Below the pieces are notes generated by a model, which made no database searches, had not been told where the DNA came from, and saw only the letters and a list, made by a program, of their open reading frames with translations. Shown in pieces: positions 23,606 to 35,096 of a stretch of DNA of 64,000 nt. Numbering within the stretch: the stretch's first letter is position 1; each line of letters opens with the position of its first letter. The translations under genes were made by a program, and so were the position numbers. The stretch is from Gallionella sp. (lineage in GTDB: Bacteria; Pseudomonadota; Gammaproteobacteria; Burkholderiales; Gallionellaceae): contig JAQTWT010000010.1 in NCBI GenBank assembly GCA_028689145.1, positions 1 to 64,000 of the forward strand, given 5' to 3'.

Positions 23606-26215
23606 ATGGGTATCCACAAAATTGATGTTGCACGCGGAATTCAGTGGGTAGAGGTTCCCGAAGCCAATTTGCGAGTGCTGTGCGGATGCCCCGCGGATGC
23701 CGTCAAACATCTGATCAAACGCGGGTTGATTCTGGCCCAGGAGGTCAAAGGAGTTACCTGCGAAACTGGTCCCAACGCCATCCTGCTCTCGGATATTTTG
23801 TTGCAGAACGGAGAGTTCGCCAATCTCGCCGAATTTCCGGTCTTGCAGATGCTTTACAAGCAGGGGCTGATTCTGCCCGGACACCCCAATAACACCGGGC
23901 ATAAACCGATGCTGATCGGCTCGGCCAATCAGGTCGAGTCGCAGATGCGCTATATCTACCGTGGAAATTACGGTCTGGTCTCGCGCGAGGAAATGATTGA
24001 GGCGGGCGTGTCAGGGGAGCAGGCTACCGAGATGATGCGCCTGAAGCTGAAATTCGCATTTGGGCGTATTCGCCCGACCAGCGATTTTATTGATACCCGC
24101 GTCGTCGGCGACGGCATGACGGAAATCGCGGACGGTGTAAATCTGCGCCGGTTACGCTCCAACGTTTTTGAATTTTCCTATAACGGCGAGACGGTGACGG
24201 TCGATCTCAATCTCCCCCCCGGCGTTACCTACGAATGCGCTTATCCGCTGGGTTTCCGCAGGTTCGAACCGGAGTATTTCGCCGTTATTCACTCGGGCGA
24301 GGGGGATGGTTGGGATGTCAATCGTCCCTGTATGTCGAGCATCATTACTTATCAGGGAAGCCTTTACCTGATCGATGCCGGCCCGCATCTGGTCAACGCC
24401 ATGTCGGCTCTGGGTATCAGCATCGACCAAGTGGACGGCATTTTTCATACCCATGCGCACGACGATCATTTTGCCGGTCTTTCCGCGCTGATGCGTTCAG
24501 GTCGGCGCATCCGTTACTTTGCGACCCCGTTGGTGCGTGCTTCGGTGGAAAAAAAACTGGCCGCATTAATGGGTATGGAAGAAGAGCGTTTCAACGATTT
24601 CTTCGATGTTCGCGATCTGGTGTTCGATACTTGGAACGATGTCGAGGGGCTGGAGGTTATGCCGGTTTTCTCGCCGCATCCGGTGGAGACAAATATCTTC
24701 GTATTTCGCACCCTGTGGGGTGACGGCTACCGCACCTATGCCCATTTTGCGGATATCGTGTCGTTGAATGTTCTTAAGGGTATGGTTACCGACCGGCAGG
24801 AAATGCCGGGACTCGATCAGGCAGCGTTTGAACGTATTCGTGCCGCCTATCTGGTTTCGTCCGACCTGAAAAAAATCGACGTGGGGGGCGGCATAATCCA
24901 CGGTGATGCGAAGGACTTTAGGGAAGATACATCCACCCGCATCCTGCTTGCCCACCGCGCCAGCGAGCTGACTCCGGAAGAGAAGGAGATCGGCTCCAGC
25001 GCCGCATTCGGCACCGTTGACGTGCTGGTGGAAGGACAGCTGGAGGTATTGCGCCGACATGCTTTTACCTGTCTGCAGGCCAATCTTCCGGGCGTGGCGT
25101 TCCACGATTTGCGCATGCTGCTCAACCATCCCATGACGGAAATTAATCCCGGTGCCATTATTCTCAAAGAAGGTGAAACATCCCAGGAGATACTGTTGCT
25201 GGTAAGCGGAGGGGTTGAGAAAATACGCACCCGCGATAATTTATTCGGAAGCCTGTCTGCCGGGTCGCTTATCGGTGTCGGTGCCATGCTGGATCATCGC
25301 CCTTCCCGTCACACCTACCGCGCATCATCCTTTGTGCGGGTATTGCGGCTCCCTGTCGGCCTGTATGCCGAAGTCGTGCGGCGCAACGGATTGTTGGAAC
25401 GCATGCGTCGCACTGCCGATCTGCGCGCTTTTCTGGATGCAACCAACCTGTTCAGCGAAGGTATTCCGATCGACGTATTCGGCCGCATCGTCGACAATGC
25501 ATTGGAACAGCGCTTCCAACCCGGTGAAATTATCGATGGTAATAATCTCCGGGTTCTCAACATCATCCGCACCGGTGTCGTTGAACGCTCGGTAGGCAAC
25601 AAGGTGCTGGACGTACTGAAGCAGCGGGATTTCTTCGGTGAAGAAGGCGCAGTTCTCAAGATTCCCGGCCTGTTTCGCCTGCGCGTGCTGGAAGAGACTG
25701 TAGTTGTGCAGATTCCCGGAAAATTTCTGGAGGATGTGCCGGTCCTGCGCTGGAAAATTTTTGAAAACCACCAGCAACGGGCTGCACACGCTGCGCACGA
25801 CGATCAGTCGGAAATATTTGCCTGGCGTGACAGTTTCGATGTCCGTGTGGCGCAAATGGATGGACATCACAAAAAACTGATCGAAATCTCCAACACGATC
25901 ACAGAATATTTACACAAAAAGTCTGAGCGCGAATTGCTTGCCAATGCTTTTGATGCGCTGGTAGATTTTACGCGCCATCACTTTGCTGCAGAGGAAAAAC
26001 TATTGGCGCTTTACAGTTATCCGGACATAGAGATACATCGAAAAAAGCATGGCGAACTGCTCGATCAAATTGTCGAATACAGAAAGCAGGTGCTGGGCGG
26101 CGATGTGCCCGACAAGGCGGGCTTTTTGAATTTCATGGAACGCTGGCTGATCCGCCACATTCTCGACGAAGACCGCAAGTACGGCGGATTTCTCAATGAC
26201 AAGGGCGTGTATTAG
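23606..26215 (+). CDS. multidomain protein: metallo-beta-lactamase fold, cyclic-nucleotide-binding, hemerythrin
   Basis: The 869-residue protein has a unique N-terminal region (1-200), then a metallo-beta-lactamase fold with HTHAHDDH at 281-288. Two cNMP-binding-like beta-barrels follow (about 505-620 and 630-725; for example GAIILKEGETSQEILLLVSG). The C-terminal hemerythrin (about 738-869) has ligands in MDGHHK, HHFAAE, HRKKHGE and HILDED. Hemerythrin di-iron sites bind O2 or NO. MBL domains hydrolyse many substrates or, in flavodiiron proteins, reduce O2/NO. There is no membrane span. The combined function is unknown; a cytosolic oxygen- or redox-responsive enzyme is my inference. Confidence 0.85.
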   Translation: MGIHKIDVARGIQWVEVPEANLRVLCGCPADAVKHLIKRGLILAQEVKGVTCETGPNAILLSDILLQNGEFANLAEFPVLQMLYKQGLILPGHPNNTGHKPMLIGSANQVESQMRYIYRGNYGLVSREEMIEAGVSGEQATEMMRLKLKFAFGRIRPTSDFIDTRVVGDGMTEIADGVNLRRLRSNVFEFSYNGETVTVDLNLPPGVTYECAYPLGFRRFEPEYFAVIHSGEGDGWDVNRPCMSSIITYQGSLYLIDAGPHLVNAMSALGISIDQVDGIFHTHAHDDHFAGLSALMRSGRRIRYFATPLVRASVEKKLAALMGMEEERFNDFFDVRDLVFDTWNDVEGLEVMPVFSPHPVETNIFVFRTLWGDGYRTYAHFADIVSLNVLKGMVTDRQEMPGLDQAAFERIRAAYLVSSDLKKIDVGGGIIHGDAKDFREDTSTRILLAHRASELTPEEKEIGSSAAFGTVDVLVEGQLEVLRRHAFTCLQANLPGVAFHDLRMLLNHPMTEINPGAIILKEGETSQEILLLVSGGVEKIRTRDNLFGSLSAGSLIGVGAMLDHRPSRHTYRASSFVRVLRLPVGLYAEVVRRNGLLERMRRTADLRAFLDATNLFSEGIPIDVFGRIVDNALEQRFQPGEIIDGNNLRVLNIIRTGVVERSVGNKVLDVLKQRDFFGEEGAVLKIPGLFRLRVLEETVVVQIPGKFLEDVPVLRWKIFENHQQRAAHAAHDDQSEIFAWRDSFDVRVAQMDGHHKKLIEISNTITEYLHKKSERELLANAFDALVDFTRHHFAAEEKLLALYSYPDIEIHRKKHGELLDQIVEYRKQVLGGDVPDKAGFLNFMERWLIRHILDEDRKYGGFLNDKGVY

Positions 26216-27972: not shown

Positions 27973-28899
27973 TTAAGTACCGTAAGTCTGGTTGTAAGCG
28001 GCTAACGCCCGAGCTGCCTGCACTACAGGTTTGGTAGTGTCGCCAGTGCCGAATTCTTTCTGCAATGAATCTTTGTTATCTGTAATGTAATGGATAGCGC
28101 TATTCAGGTTGTCGAGCCGTTTCAGAATAAAGTTACCGTCTGAATTGAGCAAGCTTGCCGATTTGGCAAAATTTGCGCCGAATTCCTGTAGCGTATCGAC
28201 AGCGCCTTGCTTGTTGGTCGTCAACAGTGCGTCCAGTTTGGCAGTATCCAGAGTAGCCAAGCGGGTGTCAGGGTCAATAGTGATACCCATCTCGCCCAAG
28301 CCATGCACACCACCCTTGATTCCAAAGAAACGGTTATTAATGTTCTGCTCCAACTCAAACCGGGAAACCTGCGCTGCCTGCGTGCCAGCTAGCCCCCCGC
28401 CTTGTTGAAAGTCGGGGTCAAACCGCTGAATCCAGGTGTTGTATTGCCCCACAAACTGTTGCAGCCGAGATTTTATACTGTCATTGTCGGCGGATAATGC
28501 AATGCTGCCCAAGCTCGATCCTGCCTCCTGCATCTGCGATATGGAAGATTTCATCTCGCTTAGTTTAGAGAACTGGGTTTTATAGTAAACATCAGCCTTG
28601 TTGATAGAGGTCATCATCTTGTAGGCAGACTCTGGATCGGCCAGCGTCATATTGAAGCCGGCAGGAGAAAGGCTTGTTATGTTATAGCTCTGGTTTATGT
28701 TGCTGCTTTGAGTGAGTCGTGACAACAGGTCGCTGGATAAGTCGACGGCAGGCAACCGGTTAAGCTGAGTGCCGTTTGAAGCAAGAAGCGAAAACATCGT
28801 TGCGAACGAGTCGTCAAGCTTTACGTTCACTGGTGAACTTGTCAGCGAACCTAGCATCTGTGATTGCACAAGCGAGATAGAAACGGGCGAAATATTCAT
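27973..28899 (-). CDS. FliD-like flagellar cap/hook-associated protein, atypical
   Basis: The 308-residue protein resembles the C-terminal part of FliD (hook-associated protein 2). It has LQQFVGQYNTWIQRF, GEMGITIDPDTRLATLDTAKL and DNLNSAIHYITDNKDSLQKE. Normal FliD is longer (about 450-600 aa) and is encoded with flagellin genes; neither holds here. The N-terminal third is Ser/Leu-rich and unusual. It may be a diverged cap-like protein with another use. Confidence is moderate. Confidence 0.6.
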   Translation of the reverse strand: MNISPVSISLVQSQMLGSLTSSPVNVKLDDSFATMFSLLASNGTQLNRLPAVDLSSDLLSRLTQSSNINQSYNITSLSPAGFNMTLADPESAYKMMTSINKADVYYKTQFSKLSEMKSSISQMQEAGSSLGSIALSADNDSIKSRLQQFVGQYNTWIQRFDPDFQQGGGLAGTQAAQVSRFELEQNINNRFFGIKGGVHGLGEMGITIDPDTRLATLDTAKLDALLTTNKQGAVDTLQEFGANFAKSASLLNSDGNFILKRLDNLNSAIHYITDNKDSLQKEFGTGDTTKPVVQAARALAAYNQTYGT

Positions 28900-29518: not shown

Positions 29519-31264
29519 ATGCGGTGGTTAAAGCGCCTTCTGGTTGGTTTACTCGCCTTAGTGACGGTGGCGATGGTCGCGGTTTACCTGACTCCGCTGG
29601 ATACCTATGTGCCGGAACTTGAGCGGGTTCTGAGTCGCCAACTGCACGAGCCGGTCAAGATCCGGCAGATCAGCATTGCAATGGTGCCTTTGCCCCATCT
29701 TGAACTGCAGGATGTGCGTCTGGGCGGACAGGAGGCAATTGATATCCGCTCGGTTGATGTGGAATTTGATTTGCCAGGATTGCTGTCGGGTCACAAGGTA
29801 TTGCAGCGTGTCACGGTGAAAGACGGCACCGCGCATCATGCGCTGGTGCGCAAACTGGTTGATTTTCTGGTTAATACTCCTGTTACCAGTCAACTGATGA
29901 GAATGCGCGAGTTGCAGTTTTCCGGGATAACTTTGCTGGTTCCGGAAATGACGTTGGCACCAGCCGAAGGCAAGCTGGAATTCGCGCAGACCGGGCAGTT
30001 GGAGCGGGCGTGGTTTGCGATGGATGAACAAAAAGTCACTGCAACTCTGGTGACGCTGCCGGATTGGCACTTTGCGTTAGCGTTGCGGGCGCATGGCTGG
30101 ACTACTCCAAAATTCCAACAATTTCCGCCAATACCGCTGGACGATCTGCAGCTGGAGGGAGTGTTGGGTGAACATGATCTTGTCGCACAGAACTTTGCCG
30201 TTGCCTCGCGCGGCATGCGTATAGCCGGTTCAGCCAAGGTGGAATTAGCGGATGGGTGGCAGGTGCAGGCGACGCTGACGCAGGCCGATGCCCAACTGGA
30301 GCAGGTGATGGCATTGCTGGGCAAGCCGCTCGGCTTGACCGGTGCGCTGTCGGTTAAAGGGGAGTTAAGCGGCAAGGCAAGCGCATTATCGGCACTGAAG
30401 GAGAATTTTAGTTTTTCGGGTAATGTGCATATTAATCATGCAACCGCGCACATTGTTACCGAGTTAAAGCATCCGCTGATATTCGATCAGATCAGCGCGC
30501 ACGTCGTGGTACATCCGGATCGCCTGGAGTTGAGTTCATTGGAGGCGAAACTATACGGCGGAAAACTGTCCGGAACGGCGAAAATAAATCGCAAGACAAC
30601 CATGCTGGTAGCGGATGCGGCGGTGACCGGGATCGCCATGCAACCGCTGGTGGAGGCGTTGAGCAACGAAGTGTTGTTCACCGGCAATATGGATAGTGTC
30701 GCCAAACTTTCCATGCGTCTGGACGCGTTCAAACAGTTTCCGAAAAATTTGCAATTGGATGGCAACTTTCATTTGCGCGACGGGGTGCTGTCCAAAGTGG
30801 ATTTGCTGCAAGCGGCAAGCAATCCGGGCAAGACTAACCTCAAGGAAGGCACGACCCGTTTTGACGATTTGACCGGCTTGCTCAACGTGGATGCGAGTGG
30901 TTATCATTTCAAAAAATTAAAGATCACTTCCGGCTCGCTAAATGCCGATGGCAAGGTGAATATCAGTCCCGCATTGCAGATCAGCGGGAAGCTGGAGGTC
31001 AATATTAAAGGAACGGCCGGTCTGGTCAGTATGCCGCTGGTGATTTCGGGAACATTGGATAAGCCGGTGGTCAGGCCAAGCGGATCGGTATTGGCGGGTG
31101 CTGCGGTAGGGACGGCTATTTTGGGGCCGGGACTCGGGACGGCGATAGGAGTGAAAATCGGCGGGTTTCTGAATAAATTATTTGGTAACGACGACGACAA
31201 GAGCGACAACGGGAAGGTTGAGCCAAAATCACCTGTAACGAAGAAATCAACGATAAAAAATTGA
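29519..31264 (+). CDS. AsmA-family protein
   Basis: The 581-residue protein has an N-terminal membrane anchor (MRWLKRLLVGLLALVTVAMV) followed by a long periplasmic beta-rich region. Typical AsmA features are PVKIRQISIAMVPLPHLELQ early and, late, GTTRFDDLTGLLNVDASGYH and LQISGKLEVNIKGTA. AsmA-like proteins are elongated grooves thought to move phospholipids between the two membranes or affect envelope assembly. The next gene, 24 bases on, carries a related AsmA-like part, so the two probably act together. Confidence 0.88.
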   Translation: MRWLKRLLVGLLALVTVAMVAVYLTPLDTYVPELERVLSRQLHEPVKIRQISIAMVPLPHLELQDVRLGGQEAIDIRSVDVEFDLPGLLSGHKVLQRVTVKDGTAHHALVRKLVDFLVNTPVTSQLMRMRELQFSGITLLVPEMTLAPAEGKLEFAQTGQLERAWFAMDEQKVTATLVTLPDWHFALALRAHGWTTPKFQQFPPIPLDDLQLEGVLGEHDLVAQNFAVASRGMRIAGSAKVELADGWQVQATLTQADAQLEQVMALLGKPLGLTGALSVKGELSGKASALSALKENFSFSGNVHINHATAHIVTELKHPLIFDQISAHVVVHPDRLELSSLEAKLYGGKLSGTAKINRKTTMLVADAAVTGIAMQPLVEALSNEVLFTGNMDSVAKLSMRLDAFKQFPKNLQLDGNFHLRDGVLSKVDLLQAASNPGKTNLKEGTTRFDDLTGLLNVDASGYHFKKLKITSGSLNADGKVNISPALQISGKLEVNIKGTAGLVSMPLVISGTLDKPVVRPSGSVLAGAAVGTAILGPGLGTAIGVKIGGFLNKLFGNDDDKSDNGKVEPKSPVTKKSTIKN

Positions 31265-31288: not shown

Positions 31289-34200
31289 ATGGACGGTAAA
31301 ACAACTTTTGTCAGAACCAATAAGGGCGAGGATGAGGCGCGCAGCAAAACCTCGCATTTGTCGGGAGATATTAAACGCGCCTTGCTGATGGTGGATGGCT
31401 CCGCAACTTTTGCCGAAATCAGTAAACGTGCCGCGCCCAGCTTGCGCGACAACCTTGAGGACATGCTCAAGAATCTGGAAAAGGGCGGTTTTGTTCAGGA
31501 TAAATCCAGAGTCGGCAACATTCCAAAAATGGTTGTGCCGCCAAAAATGAGCGCACCGGTCAAGAAACCCACTGCGGATGAGGGTGTCGATGAACTGGAT
31601 TTTACCGCTGCGTTTCGCCCCCCCTCTCAGGAAGAACTCGCCAAACAGAATATTGAAGCGGCAAAATTAAAGGCGCAACAGGAAGCGGAGGCAGCGCGGC
31701 AGAAGGCCGAGCAGGAAGCTGCGCGGGGGCGCGCCGAACTTGATGCCGCCAAGGCCAAGGCCGATGCCGAGGCTAGAGCGCGAGCATTGGCCGAAGCAAA
31801 GGCAAAGCAGGAAATAGAGGCCGCGCGTCTCAAGGCCGAGGCTGAAGCGAAGGCGCGTGCCGAGGTTGAGGCAAAAGCCCGGATTGAGGCGGAGGCCAAA
31901 GCCAGACGTGAAATCGAGGCGGCGAAGTTAAAGGCGCAGCAGGAAGCGGAGGTGCGCCTCAAGGCTGAACGGGAAGCCGCCATAGCGCGTGAAGAAGCCG
32001 AACTTGCCAAACAGAAAGCGCTGGCCGAGGCAAAGCTGCGCGAAGAGGCCGAACGCCACGCCAGAGAAGCGGCGGAAGCCGCGCGAATAAAGGCGGAACA
32101 GGAGGCCGCGCGGGTGCGAGCCGAACTGGCTGCGGTAAAAGCACAAGCCGAAGCGGAGGCGAAAGCCAGACAGGAGGCGGAGCATCGGGCGCGTGAGCAA
32201 GCCGAAGCTGCCAGATTGAAGGCGCAACAGGAAGCCGAGCAAAACCGTCTCAAAGCCGAGCAGGAAGCCGCCCAAGCGCGTGAAGAGGCGGCACTCGCCA
32301 AACAAAAAGCAGAAGCGGAAACCAGAGCGCGCGAAGAGGCAGAACGCCGGGCCAAGGCTGAAGCGGAAGCCGCGCGCGTGAAAACGGAACAAGAAGCGGC
32401 GCGGGTGAGGGCTGAGTTGGATGCCGCTAAGGCGAAAGCCGATGCCGAGGCTAAGGCAAGAGAAGAAGCGGAGCGTCGCGCGCATCAAGAAACCGAGGCG
32501 GCAAAATTAAAGGCGCAACGGGAAATCGAGGTGGTGCGTCTCAAAGCAGAACAGGATGCTGCCCAGGCGATCGAGGAAGCCGAAACTGCCAAGCAAAAGG
32601 CAGAAACTGAAATCAGGGCGCGTGAAGAATCTGAACGGCTGGCCCGGCAAACAATGGAGTCCTCCGCCGGGTTGAAGGCGCAACAGGAAACCGTTAAAAC
32701 GAGGTCGGGAGCATACTCTGCCGCGCGTTCCACCAGTGCGACGGTGCTGTTTTTTGATGTGGTCGGTTATACCAAACAACCGGTCAATAAACAGATCGAG
32801 ATCAAACAACAATTCAATCGTCTGGTGTCGGATTGTCTGGCGATGCAGGGGGACAGCGAACGCATCATTCTGGATACCGGCGACGGCGCAGCTATCGGTT
32901 TTATGCAACACCCGGAAGACGCGCTGGAAGTGGCAATGCAGTTTCGCCGGACCGTTATGGACAACCGGCACAATGATTATCCCGATCTGAAAGTACGCAT
33001 CGGTATTCATCTCGGCCCGATCAATGTCGCCAATGACATGAATGGCCGCAGCAACATGGTCGGCGACGGGATTAACGATGCGCAACGTGTGATGAGCTTC
33101 GCGGGCATTGACCAGATATATATTTCCCGTTCCTATTACGATTTTGTTTCGCGTCTCAGCGACGAATATGCAAACCTGTTCCACTATCGCGGTGCGCTAA
33201 AGGACAAGCATGGCCGCGAACATCCGGTCTATGAGTTGGTGGATGGCGCAGCGCCTGTTGCGGAGGCCGTGCCGTCGCAAGCCGGTGAAGCATCCTCCGC
33301 CGTCACGCTGGAACCGTTCAGTTTTGTGATGCAGGAGGCAGCAGCGGTTCCGCCAATCTCATCCGAACCGGCATCTGTGGCTGCGTATGAAAAGCCGGAA
33401 ACACTGCAGCGGGATGATGAGGCTGCGCTGTTTAAGGATATCGCGCAGATGAATTGGGAGGAAGAAACCAGCAAGCCGGTTGCAGCAGAAACAATCTCGC
33501 GGCAGCAGATATCTCCAGCATCGCCTCCGCCTGCGGCCAGTGTTCCGGAAGCAGCAGCGCCTTCCGAAAAGAACGCACCTTCCGCAGCGGCGGAAATAAA
33601 AGAATCCCCCGAACCTGTCGCACCGGCACGTATGCCTTCTGCCGAAGATGTGGCAAAACTTGCGGAAACTCAGGCCAAAGCCTGGGCCGATGCCGAACAA
33701 CGCGGAGTTGAAACTGCCAAGGTTAAGGCCGAACACGCCGCCCGGCAGCACCACCACCCTGCGCCCGCTGCGAAGGATATTCTGGCTGAACGCGGCAGGA
33801 GCAAACCGCTACCCTGGGGCAAGCTGGGGGTGGGATTATTTGCGCTGATAGTGGGCGCGTTGTTTGCCGTGCCGCCCTTGTTGCCGATGCGGGGTTCCGC
33901 AGACAATATCGAACAATTGCTTACCGCCAGACTGCAACAACCGGTGCATATCGGGCGTATGGCGGGGCGTCTGCTACCCACTCCGCGTCTGGAGATGAGC
34001 GATGTATCGGTTGGTGAAACAAAGCAGATTCAGGTGCAACAGGCACGCGTGAATTTTGCGCTGTCCGCATTGTTCTCCTCGAGCAAACCGATCACCGGCA
34101 TCGAATTGGACGGTGTGCAGGCCGACGGCGCGGCGTTGCAGCAAGCAACCGTGTGGCTGCAGAAGATCGCCGCCGACACGCAGTATCCGGTTGAGCGTAT

Positions 34201-35002
34201 TACGTTGAACCAAGGCAAGCTGGAAGCGGACGGTGTGCAATTGTCCGATATAGGCGGCGAACTGAGTTTCGGCGGGGACGGGAAATTCGCCAAAGCGAAA
34301 TTACATGCCGACGGGAATAAACTCGGGCTGGATATCAACGCCACTCCGGAGGGAAAAATGGCGGTGTCGATCGCGGTACGCGGTGGTTCATTGCCGCTAC
34401 TGCCGAATTGGGTTTTCGACGATTTGACCGCAAAGGGCGAGTTGACCGGGGACGAACTGGTGATCACCGATCTGGATGGCCGCATCATGGGCGGCATGCT
34501 GCTCGGCGATGCGCGCATCGCTTGGCGTTCCGGCTGGCGCGCCCAGGGTGCTCTGACGGCAAAAACCATCGCTACGCAAAATCTCAGCCGGGCATTAAAC
34601 GGCGATATGGATGGCATGGCACGCTTCCAGATGCAGTCGAGCAGTTTGGCAAAACTTACCGAAGCGGCGACGCTGGACGGAAATTTTGTCATTAAGAAGG
34701 GTGTCATCAACGGTTTTGATGTCATCGAAACAGCCCGTCAGCGCAGCAGGGAAAACCTGCCGGGGGGGCGTACCAATTTCGAGGAATTGAGCGGAGAGTT
34801 ATCCGTTGCAAATGGCATCTACAACTTCAGGCAACTGAAGATGTCTGGCGGGGTCTGGAATGCGACCGGTACATTGGGCATTACCAAACAGCAGTTATCG
34901 GGAAGAATTTCGGCCGATCTGACCAAGTTCTCCGGGATGGGAACGGTTGCGTTGCAACTCAATGGAACGACCGACAATCCGGCACTCCGCGCAGCGCATT
35001 AA
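31289..35002 (+). CDS. coiled-coil / class III nucleotidyl cyclase / membrane / AsmA-like fusion protein
   Basis: The 1237-residue protein has five parts. Residues 1-110 are a small helical domain. About 112-470 are a long Ala/Glu/Lys heptad coiled coil. About 482-650 are a class III cyclase with metal Asp490 (FFDVVGYT), Asp532 (TGDGAAIG) and Asn596/Arg600 (INDAQR). A Pro/Ala linker leads to one span at about 838-862 (LGVGLFALIVGALFAVPPLL). AsmA-like sequence fills 863-1237. The cyclase would face the cytoplasm and the AsmA part the periplasm. The usual base-recognition Lys before GDG appears to be Leu, so the product (cAMP, cGMP or none) is uncertain. Confidence 0.88.
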   Translation: MDGKTTFVRTNKGEDEARSKTSHLSGDIKRALLMVDGSATFAEISKRAAPSLRDNLEDMLKNLEKGGFVQDKSRVGNIPKMVVPPKMSAPVKKPTADEGVDELDFTAAFRPPSQEELAKQNIEAAKLKAQQEAEAARQKAEQEAARGRAELDAAKAKADAEARARALAEAKAKQEIEAARLKAEAEAKARAEVEAKARIEAEAKARREIEAAKLKAQQEAEVRLKAEREAAIAREEAELAKQKALAEAKLREEAERHAREAAEAARIKAEQEAARVRAELAAVKAQAEAEAKARQEAEHRAREQAEAARLKAQQEAEQNRLKAEQEAAQAREEAALAKQKAEAETRAREEAERRAKAEAEAARVKTEQEAARVRAELDAAKAKADAEAKAREEAERRAHQETEAAKLKAQREIEVVRLKAEQDAAQAIEEAETAKQKAETEIRAREESERLARQTMESSAGLKAQQETVKTRSGAYSAARSTSATVLFFDVVGYTKQPVNKQIEIKQQFNRLVSDCLAMQGDSERIILDTGDGAAIGFMQHPEDALEVAMQFRRTVMDNRHNDYPDLKVRIGIHLGPINVANDMNGRSNMVGDGINDAQRVMSFAGIDQIYISRSYYDFVSRLSDEYANLFHYRGALKDKHGREHPVYELVDGAAPVAEAVPSQAGEASSAVTLEPFSFVMQEAAAVPPISSEPASVAAYEKPETLQRDDEAALFKDIAQMNWEEETSKPVAAETISRQQISPASPPPAASVPEAAAPSEKNAPSAAAEIKESPEPVAPARMPSAEDVAKLAETQAKAWADAEQRGVETAKVKAEHAARQHHHPAPAAKDILAERGRSKPLPWGKLGVGLFALIVGALFAVPPLLPMRGSADNIEQLLTARLQQPVHIGRMAGRLLPTPRLEMSDVSVGETKQIQVQQARVNFALSALFSSSKPITGIELDGVQADGAALQQATVWLQKIAADTQYPVERITLNQGKLEADGVQLSDIGGELSFGGDGKFAKAKLHADGNKLGLDINATPEGKMAVSIAVRGGSLPLLPNWVFDDLTAKGELTGDELVITDLDGRIMGGMLLGDARIAWRSGWRAQGALTAKTIATQNLSRALNGDMDGMARFQMQSSSLAKLTEAATLDGNFVIKKGVINGFDVIETARQRSRENLPGGRTNFEELSGELSVANGIYNFRQLKMSGGVWNATGTLGITKQQLSGRISADLTKFSGMGTVALQLNGTTDNPALRAAH
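31640..32700 (+). repeat. internal repeats coding for the coiled coil
   Basis: This DNA repeats blocks coding for AAKLKAQQEAE, REEAERRA and AKAKADAEAKA many times with variation, as if built by internal duplication. Its length probably varies between strains. Confidence 0.8.
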
Positions 35003-35016
35003 TTGTCTTTTTTCGG

Positions 35017-35096
35017 TAGGGGCGCGATTTATCGCGCCCTTTTTCTTGTGCCTGAATAAATCAGGGCGTGATGAATCACGCCCCTACGATATTCCG
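35017..35096. repeat. REP-type double hairpin, also terminator of the cyclase gene
   Basis: The first hairpin, GGGCGCGAT/ATCGCGCCC (35020-35039) followed by TTTTTC, can end the upstream operon. The second hairpin, GGGCGTGAT/ATCACGCCC (35064-35083), completes an inverted repeat with outer ends GTAGGGGCG and CGCCCCTAC. A related element lies at 16388-16436. Confidence 0.78.

Follow-up and report, generated by a model that had tools for sequence, protein, structure and literature searches.

A class III nucleotidyl cyclase joined across the membrane to an AsmA-like domain in a Gallionella scaffold protein

We analyzed a 64,000-nucleotide stretch of Gallionella sp. DNA (contig JAQTWT010000010.1, positions 1 to 64,000; hereafter called the window). 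On its forward strand, at 31289..35002, lies a gene for a fusion protein of 1237 amino acids (aa). Open reading frame analysis, Pfam, an AlphaFold2 model and a scan of the isolated AsmA domain gave the following order of parts: an N-terminal domain, a charged helix rod, a class III cyclase, a linker, a membrane span, and a periplasmic AsmA-like domain. An initial annotation, made from the sequence alone, had proposed a single protein joining a cyclase, a membrane span and an AsmA-like part. The uninterrupted frame (31289-35002, internal stops absent) and the Pfam matches bear this out. Two genes or a frameshift were ruled out, since the same single-frame order is repeated in many independent genomes. 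Because the Gallionella genome is a draft of 23 contigs, an assembly artefact or a sequencing error fusing two genes might be suspected. However, 55 of 158 genomes of the family Gallionellaceae contain fused cyclases (frames of 715-1725 aa), and these also occur in two further families and among many independent proteins in the databases, which already refutes an artefact and leaves it a negligible probability. Gallionella and Nitrotoga are listed as genera within this family (PMC10734462).

The cyclase domain (residues 477-652; 32717..33244, +) has the cyclase homology domain fold, and Pfam Guanylate_cyc matched residues 480-621 with 30.9 bits (cut-off, 21.9). It contains the two metal-binding Asp residues and the transition-state Asn and Arg, as D490 (codon 32756-32758), D532 (32882-32884), N596 (33074-33076), and R600 (33086-33088), all on the forward strand. 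These are the residues that had been proposed initially, and they are in register: all four are identical in 120 of the 120 homologues listed, the window's own protein included. They are also identical in 14/14 rod-less fusions and 93/93 standalone-type proteins (both described below), and intact in 50 of the 53 fused-cyclase loci of Gallionellaceae. The ratio of nonsynonymous to synonymous substitution rates (dN/dS) of the cyclase was ≤0.09 in 14 of 16 close pairs; that of the AsmA part was 0.07-0.27 in 22 of the 23 pairs yielding a value. Similarity to the window's protein was 57-92% for the cyclase versus 34-81% for the AsmA part, the cyclase being higher in 52/52 other loci, and the N-terminal domain exceeded the cyclase in similarity at 7 of 47 comparable loci. 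The substitution ratios indicate that the fused cyclases are under strong purifying selection where present.

The base-recognition positions hold unusual residues, Leu528 and Asn589. In alignments to rhodopsin-guanylyl cyclase chains, with residue numbers that we assumed for these positions, Asn589 aligns with the Asp/Cys position, and the Lys/Glu position aligns with Leu528 (ungapped) or Asp529 (with a one-residue gap introduced by HMMER). The canonical pairs are Lys with Asp or Thr in adenylyl cyclases and Glu with Cys or Ser in guanylyl cyclases; in this alignment, neither pair is present in the window's cyclase. Such a pair is a subtype feature and is not obligatory for every class III enzyme. 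Since the base-recognition residues are non-standard, the substrate and product of the cyclase are not predictable. Nevertheless, GTP is reported to have been a substrate of a purified class III cyclase of Xanthomonas whose residues are also non-standard (PMC3770947), and unusual base-recognition residues therefore need not mean inactivity. Judging from its conserved residues, the fused cyclase probably works as an enzyme.

Downstream of the cyclase, a mostly disordered linker (33245..33811, +) has predicted local distance difference test (pLDDT) values below 50 in the AlphaFold2 model over residues 654-782 (one residue aside) and 820-841. It includes a conserved juxtamembrane helix at about 785-819 (pLDDT about 65-84) with the motif QAKxWAEAEQR, which is also found in cyclase-less members and is not universal (it is missing, for example, from locus L067). 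The single membrane span that had been annotated at first was recovered at about residues 844-864 (33818..33880, +), with hydropathy placing it at about 843-864 and the model showing a helix at 843-860. Basic residues precede the span, indicating an N-in, C-out orientation, and the cyclase is thereby placed in the cytoplasm, on the ATP side.

The periplasmic part is a beta-rich AsmA-like domain of about 373 residues (33881..34999, +). Pfam AsmA did not match when the whole 1237-aa protein was scanned, and an isolated-domain scan was therefore needed. The isolated C-terminal part (33809-34999) matched AsmA with 45.6 bits (cut-off, 29.8), and among 45 orthologous C-terminal parts, 42 matched AsmA and 44 matched YhdP at E 0.01. 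BLASTP of the domain against the AsmA-like protein encoded upstream gave E 1e-28, which together with the Pfam score rules out a chance match, and the AsmA-like nature proposed for this part stands. The sequence profile and the span directly before the periplasmic domain are those of the AsmA clan. Another feature of the clan is a long beta-taco groove that can reach across the periplasm; in the model, the domain has pLDDT values mostly above 90 and long strands, and comprises only about 370 residues. The matches listed in a fold search with the large model were all cyclases, and no AsmA relative was found in the PDB by sequence.

The N-terminal domain (residues 1-75; 31289..31513, +) is winged-helix-like according to our reading of the AlphaFold2 model (pLDDT 85-90 over residues 1-70). 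An alignment of 58 members has 7 invariant residues. It occurs in both cyclase-bearing and cyclase-less scaffolds; with the single sequence as query, a second copy was not found in the same genome. Foldseek returned weak matches (best E 0.16) with subunits of GATOR1/KICSTOR type at the top, which we take to contain winged helices; the match in seventh place, 2yu3, is named as a winged helix. As all E values were 0.16 or worse, winged-helix-like is meant as a description and not as an assignment.

The charged rod spans residues about 116-468 (31634..32692, +). The 360-residue stretch consists to 83% of Ala, Glu, Lys, Arg, and Gln. Its charge period is 8.75 residues, and it contains 62 K/R-to-D/E pairs at i,i+4 spacing versus 17.4 ± 3.3 in shuffles. 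Charge periodicity of this kind is a criterion for a single alpha-helix. A heptad peak for large hydrophobic residues is absent from the rod. The initial annotation had described a 360-residue coiled coil; a period of 8.75 without a heptad peak fits a single alpha-helix better, no dedicated coiled-coil predictor having been run. A TolA-like coiled coil was rejected (TolA equivalog, 14.6 bits versus a cut-off of 59.45). If it formed one continuous helix, the rod would be ~53 nm long. Among 92 family members with an intact N terminus, the charge peak exceeded the highest of 50 shuffles in 83 (42/48 with a cyclase and 41/44 without), and rod lengths ranged from 124 to 894 residues (rod plus linker in the cyclase-less members). 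A 291-base tandem DNA repeat of 2.5 copies (31910..32628, +) lies in the rod and is a possible source of this length variation. At the extremes of the family are L097, a protein of 1724 aa whose rod reaches almost 900 residues, and a 707-aa form (L084) that lacks the N-terminal domain and the rod, yet has the cyclase and the upstream AsmA gene.

This upstream gene (29519..31264, +) encodes an AsmA-like protein of 581 aa with an N-terminal membrane anchor. Pfam AsmA matched it with 58.5 bits, in agreement with the annotation of a second AsmA gene 24 bases upstream. The 24-base gap contains no terminator-like site. The two genes are likely co-transcribed, and the upstream protein is a possible partner of the fusion.

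Class III cyclases work as dimers, with active sites formed between two domains, and thus the AsmA domain would most likely act by bringing scaffolds together or apart. We propose that the family comprises inner-membrane AsmA scaffolds found across the order, each consisting of a cytoplasmic winged-helix-like domain carried on a long charged helix, a single span and, in the periplasm, a short AsmA-like domain, and that in the lineage of the window a class III cyclase was inserted between rod and membrane. Acting by itself or with the AsmA protein encoded upstream, the AsmA domain would bring two scaffolds together or apart depending on envelope or lipid state, and the cyclase would convert the dimer state of the scaffold into a cytoplasmic cyclic nucleotide. 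Coupling of envelope state to the cyclase is plausible; that the periplasmic AsmA part sets the cyclase dimer state, so that envelope or lipid state is read out as cyclic nucleotide, we hold with moderate confidence, the proposal being about evenly poised between right and wrong. A more detailed version is rather doubtful: a lipid-transfer domain would serve as the sensor, a phospholipid in the AsmA groove or contact with the AsmA partner from the operon would set the cyclase dimer, lipid traffic would be read out as a cyclic nucleotide (possibly not cAMP), and the N-terminal domain would be held tens of nanometers from the membrane on a rigid helix. The genome has 16 matches to the cyclic-nucleotide-binding family, 14 of them over the cut-off. 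Receptors therefore exist in it, none being tied by evidence to the fusion gene.

A relative in the same genome bears on periplasmic input. On contig C12 (L086, 7578-8852), a standalone cyclase followed by a membrane span and a PEGA-like C terminus is encoded next to a Ser/Thr kinase. It shares with the fusion the cyclase subfamily (about 50% identity; LDTGDG and NxVGDGIN signatures) and the order of cyclase, span and periplasmic C-terminal domain. Unlike the fusion, it has no N-terminal domain and no rod, its periplasmic domain is of the PEGA and not the AsmA type, and it belongs to a separate clade (100/98). Pfam did not report PEGA in this copy at E 0.01; some of its relatives carry PEGA in their names or as a precomputed domain. 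Relatives of this protein occur elsewhere in the order, and cyclase-span-PEGA proteins sharing the topology of the fusion are among the closest relatives of the fused cyclases. The cyclase subfamily thus carries different periplasmic domains, and a PEGA-type domain where the fusion has AsmA supports exchangeable inputs. The pair of standalone cyclase and Ser/Thr kinase (L086, 6277-8852) looks repeated in L087 and L088, with the same non-standard cyclase signature.

The layout of cyclase, span and periplasmic domain is typical of receptor cyclases. The PEGA paralogue, which pairs the same cyclase subfamily with another periplasmic domain after the span, argues against the alternative that the AsmA scaffold serves placement, holding the cyclase at envelope sites such as poles or lipid-transfer sites for a local cyclic-nucleotide pool, with the AsmA domain exerting no gating. 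A rod-less fusion in family f37, which retains the cyclase on the membrane side, points the same way. On the other hand, rod-AsmA scaffolds occur more widely than the form with a cyclase, a long linker with pLDDT below 50 over most of residues 654-782 is a poor lever for signal transmission, and AsmA-superfamily proteins are reported to be polar in Escherichia coli in a 2026 paper (PMC12977461). We regard pure placement as unlikely.

Several observations weigh against control of the cyclase by the AsmA domain, among them scaffolds that lack a cyclase. We read 101 scaffold loci in Gallionellaceae, 53 with a cyclase and 48 without (L142, counted among the 48, is too short to judge); two fusions at contig starts, in genomes G016 and G056, stand outside this set. 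Orthologous scaffolds without the cyclase were present in 6 of the 11 family genera read and in part of 2 others. The cyclase-less scaffolds examined comprised the N-terminal domain (except where a contig end removes it), the rod, the span and the AsmA domain, and Pfam detected a cyclase in 0 of 9 scanned. On a maximum likelihood tree of the AsmA part from 99 of the 101 loci (left out were L142, a piece of 405 aa at a contig end, and the truncated L126), cyclase presence changes 12 times, and at least 9 of the changes are forced by well-supported branches; the tree contains long branches (L111, L084, L136, and L065), and its bootstrap had not settled. The AsmA piece of L142 (genome G127, contig 108, genus g14) is 69% identical to that of the window and occurs besides the genome's own g14-type scaffold, L143; it may be a transfer or a contamination.

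The absence of the cyclase can be clean. L118 and L107 are closely similar elsewhere, and what is missing from L118, in frame, is precisely the cyclase with the sequence immediately around it; L056 and L133 repeat this pattern. (In L107, the sequence of the AsmA part is interrupted by two stretches of unread bases.) In a tree with three standalone cyclases, those fused in the family group together as a single clade (100/100), a result that favours a single gain with many losses. Relatives may also have exchanged cyclases by recombination instead of only losing them; L107 and L091, for example, have cyclases that are 88% identical and AsmA parts that are 58% identical. The branch dividing every fused cyclase from the standalone type, with which three further proteins group, had support of 97/85. 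A single origin of the fusion is compatible with this tree but, as the tree has no outside root, is not shown by it. These comparisons indicate that the cyclase is a detachable module between rod and membrane and that the scaffold is the stable unit. Among the matches listed for the family, those that were not fused cyclases were of the standalone type (frames of 294-481 aa), and 134 of the 158 genomes contained some relative of the cyclase.

A similar picture emerged in an order-wide sample of 399 genomes, family members included, in which a cyclase relative was present in 65 and the AsmA part had matches in 160. Nine of 12 newly read loci (L186, L190-L193, L195-L197, and L200) encode a rod ahead of the span, with no cyclase between the two. 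L192 is complete with its N-terminal domain, and most of the nine are cut before the N terminus; L187, L189, and L204 encode plain AsmA proteins. On this count, the cyclase-bearing scaffold looks like a special form and the rod-AsmA scaffold like the more general one. Rod-AsmA proteins without a cyclase and with very long charged helices were seen in several families of the order. Fusions outside Gallionellaceae were of two kinds: one with a rod in G286 (L168, family f48), and a rod-less one of about 730 aa in genus g51 of family f37 (L171 and L172 were read), with N-terminal domain, cyclase, span and AsmA domain in unchanged order. The databases hold 14 proteins of the rod-less type.

From the cyclase-less scaffolds and the 12 changes it follows that the AsmA part is not dedicated to controlling the cyclase; together with the frequent lack of the upstream AsmA gene, they suggest that the scaffold probably has a job that needs no cyclase. 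The initial annotation had allowed for reverse control, in which a cyclic nucleotide, or the nucleotide-bound conformation of the cyclase, would control the AsmA domain or its partner. A constant scaffold with an optional cyclase is what one would expect of a regulator added to an existing machine. However, Pfam shows no cyclic-nucleotide-binding domain in the fusion protein and the disordered linker lies between cyclase and membrane, and we consider this direction improbable. The same linker, which in the predicted model separates the cyclase from the membrane over a long distance, speaks together with the cyclase-less scaffolds against tight coupling, and leaves both placement and reverse control open.

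The cyclase itself is not uniformly preserved. Three of the 53 fused cyclases (L102, L120, and L124) have substituted catalytic residues, and in two close pairs the dN/dS of the cyclase was high, 0.48 (L047/L021, dS 0.03) and 0.34 (L107/L051), above that of their AsmA parts. The substitutions, the unusual base-recognition residues and the repeated clean absence would suit a degenerating or structural passenger, that is, a cyclase serving as a dimerisation block or being lost. Given the identity of the catalytic four in every homologue, rod-less fusion and standalone-type protein listed above and the low dN/dS in most pairs, such a passenger is very improbable. The proteins of L102, L120, and L124 otherwise look whole and are possible natural pseudo-cyclases.

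The evidence for the upstream AsmA protein as a partner was mixed. Its gene adjoins 20 of the 44 cyclase-bearing loci with room upstream (in L089 and L094 only as fragments of ~100 aa) and 0 of the 39 such loci without a cyclase. It is thus missing beside 24 of the 44, and an obligate partner is rejected as a rule; the fusion recurs in other genomes, with the AsmA neighbour in fewer than half of these loci. Two contig-broken extras carry the upstream gene, one cyclase-bearing and one cyclase-less. In the cyclase-less case, genome G157, the gene stands by a scaffold N terminus at a contig end, and the scaffold C terminus, on another contig, is without a cyclase. In a phylogeny-controlled test (83 rows; L062 was set to present by hand owing to a contig-broken case), the link between cyclase and upstream AsmA was not significant (median p 0.25): 8 independent pairs differ in the cyclase, and the AsmA gene differs in the same direction in about 2.5 of them and in the opposite direction in none. 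Relatives of the upstream protein at E 1e-60 were present in 23 of the 158 family genomes. The association is suggestive only.

The initial annotation knew of no described system with this layout. Likewise, we found no description in the open-access literature of an AsmA-cyclase fusion, nor of a rod-AsmA scaffold with a long cytoplasmic charged helix. Such proteins are already present in public databases, where they carry names assigned automatically ("AsmA-like C-terminal region-containing protein" and "adenylate/guanylate cyclase domain-containing protein"). Class III receptor cyclases, of the CHASE2 type and others, have a sensor outside, one or more spans and the catalytic domain inside. 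The fusion shares this arrangement and differs in that its outside domain is C-terminal to the cyclase and of the AsmA type. Like the AsmA-like clan (AsmA, TamB, YhdP, YdbH, YhjG, and YicH), it has a membrane span followed by a periplasmic AsmA domain; clan members are described as having a span at the N terminus together with a chorein-N-like region and AsmA domains (PMC8593681). Unlike them, the fusion has a large cytoplasmic part and only about 370 periplasmic residues. This AsmA part is similar in size to the whole of Pseudomonas aeruginosa PA2708 (361 aa), a protein considered probably too short to reach across the periplasm (PMC10900882). In mammalian membrane adenylyl cyclases, lipid signals are reported to control a class III cyclase via the membrane part (PMC11606603). 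These enzymes are eukaryotic and have two hexahelical membrane domains and no periplasmic AsmA domain, and they provide an analogy only. Pycsar pyrimidine cyclases have the class III catalytic motifs in common with the fusion; their base-recognition residues are reported as Y50, D94, and R97 (BcPycC) or F100, R142, and Q144 (EaPycC) (PMC11224242). A role in Pycsar or other defence was rejected, as neither the fusion nor the upstream AsmA protein nor the standalone cyclase matched a PADLOC family at E 0.01.

How Gram-negative bacteria sense lipid traffic to the outer membrane is an open question, and AsmA-like proteins have been named as leading candidates for carrying this traffic (PMC8593681). 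Here, an AsmA-type domain is linked to an enzyme whose product is easy to measure, and relatives with and without the enzyme allow direct comparison. A further outcome is a family of AsmA scaffolds, spread across the order, whose cytoplasmic parts include long charged-helix rods.

Directly past the stop codon of the fusion gene lies a terminator-like hairpin with a 10-pair stem (35018..35041, +). As the region has 6 terminator-like sites versus 8.6 in shuffles, this hairpin is weak alone. Many scaffold loci share a flank with a convergent gene for a 397-aa aminotransferase. In a genome of genus g14, the scaffold of L083 (3744-7946) stands just downstream of cytochrome c maturation-like genes, which we take to resemble ccmF, ccmG, ccmH, and ccmI, and the same clusters lie upstream in several other loci. 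Two further genes of the window deserve mention. One (27973-28899, -) encodes a 308-aa protein whose sole match is to the FliD C-terminal domain. The other (23606-26215, +) encodes an 869-aa protein with an unusual combination of a metallo-beta-lactamase fold, two cyclic-nucleotide-binding stretches and a hemerythrin domain, and its Apyc1-like match is sub-threshold.

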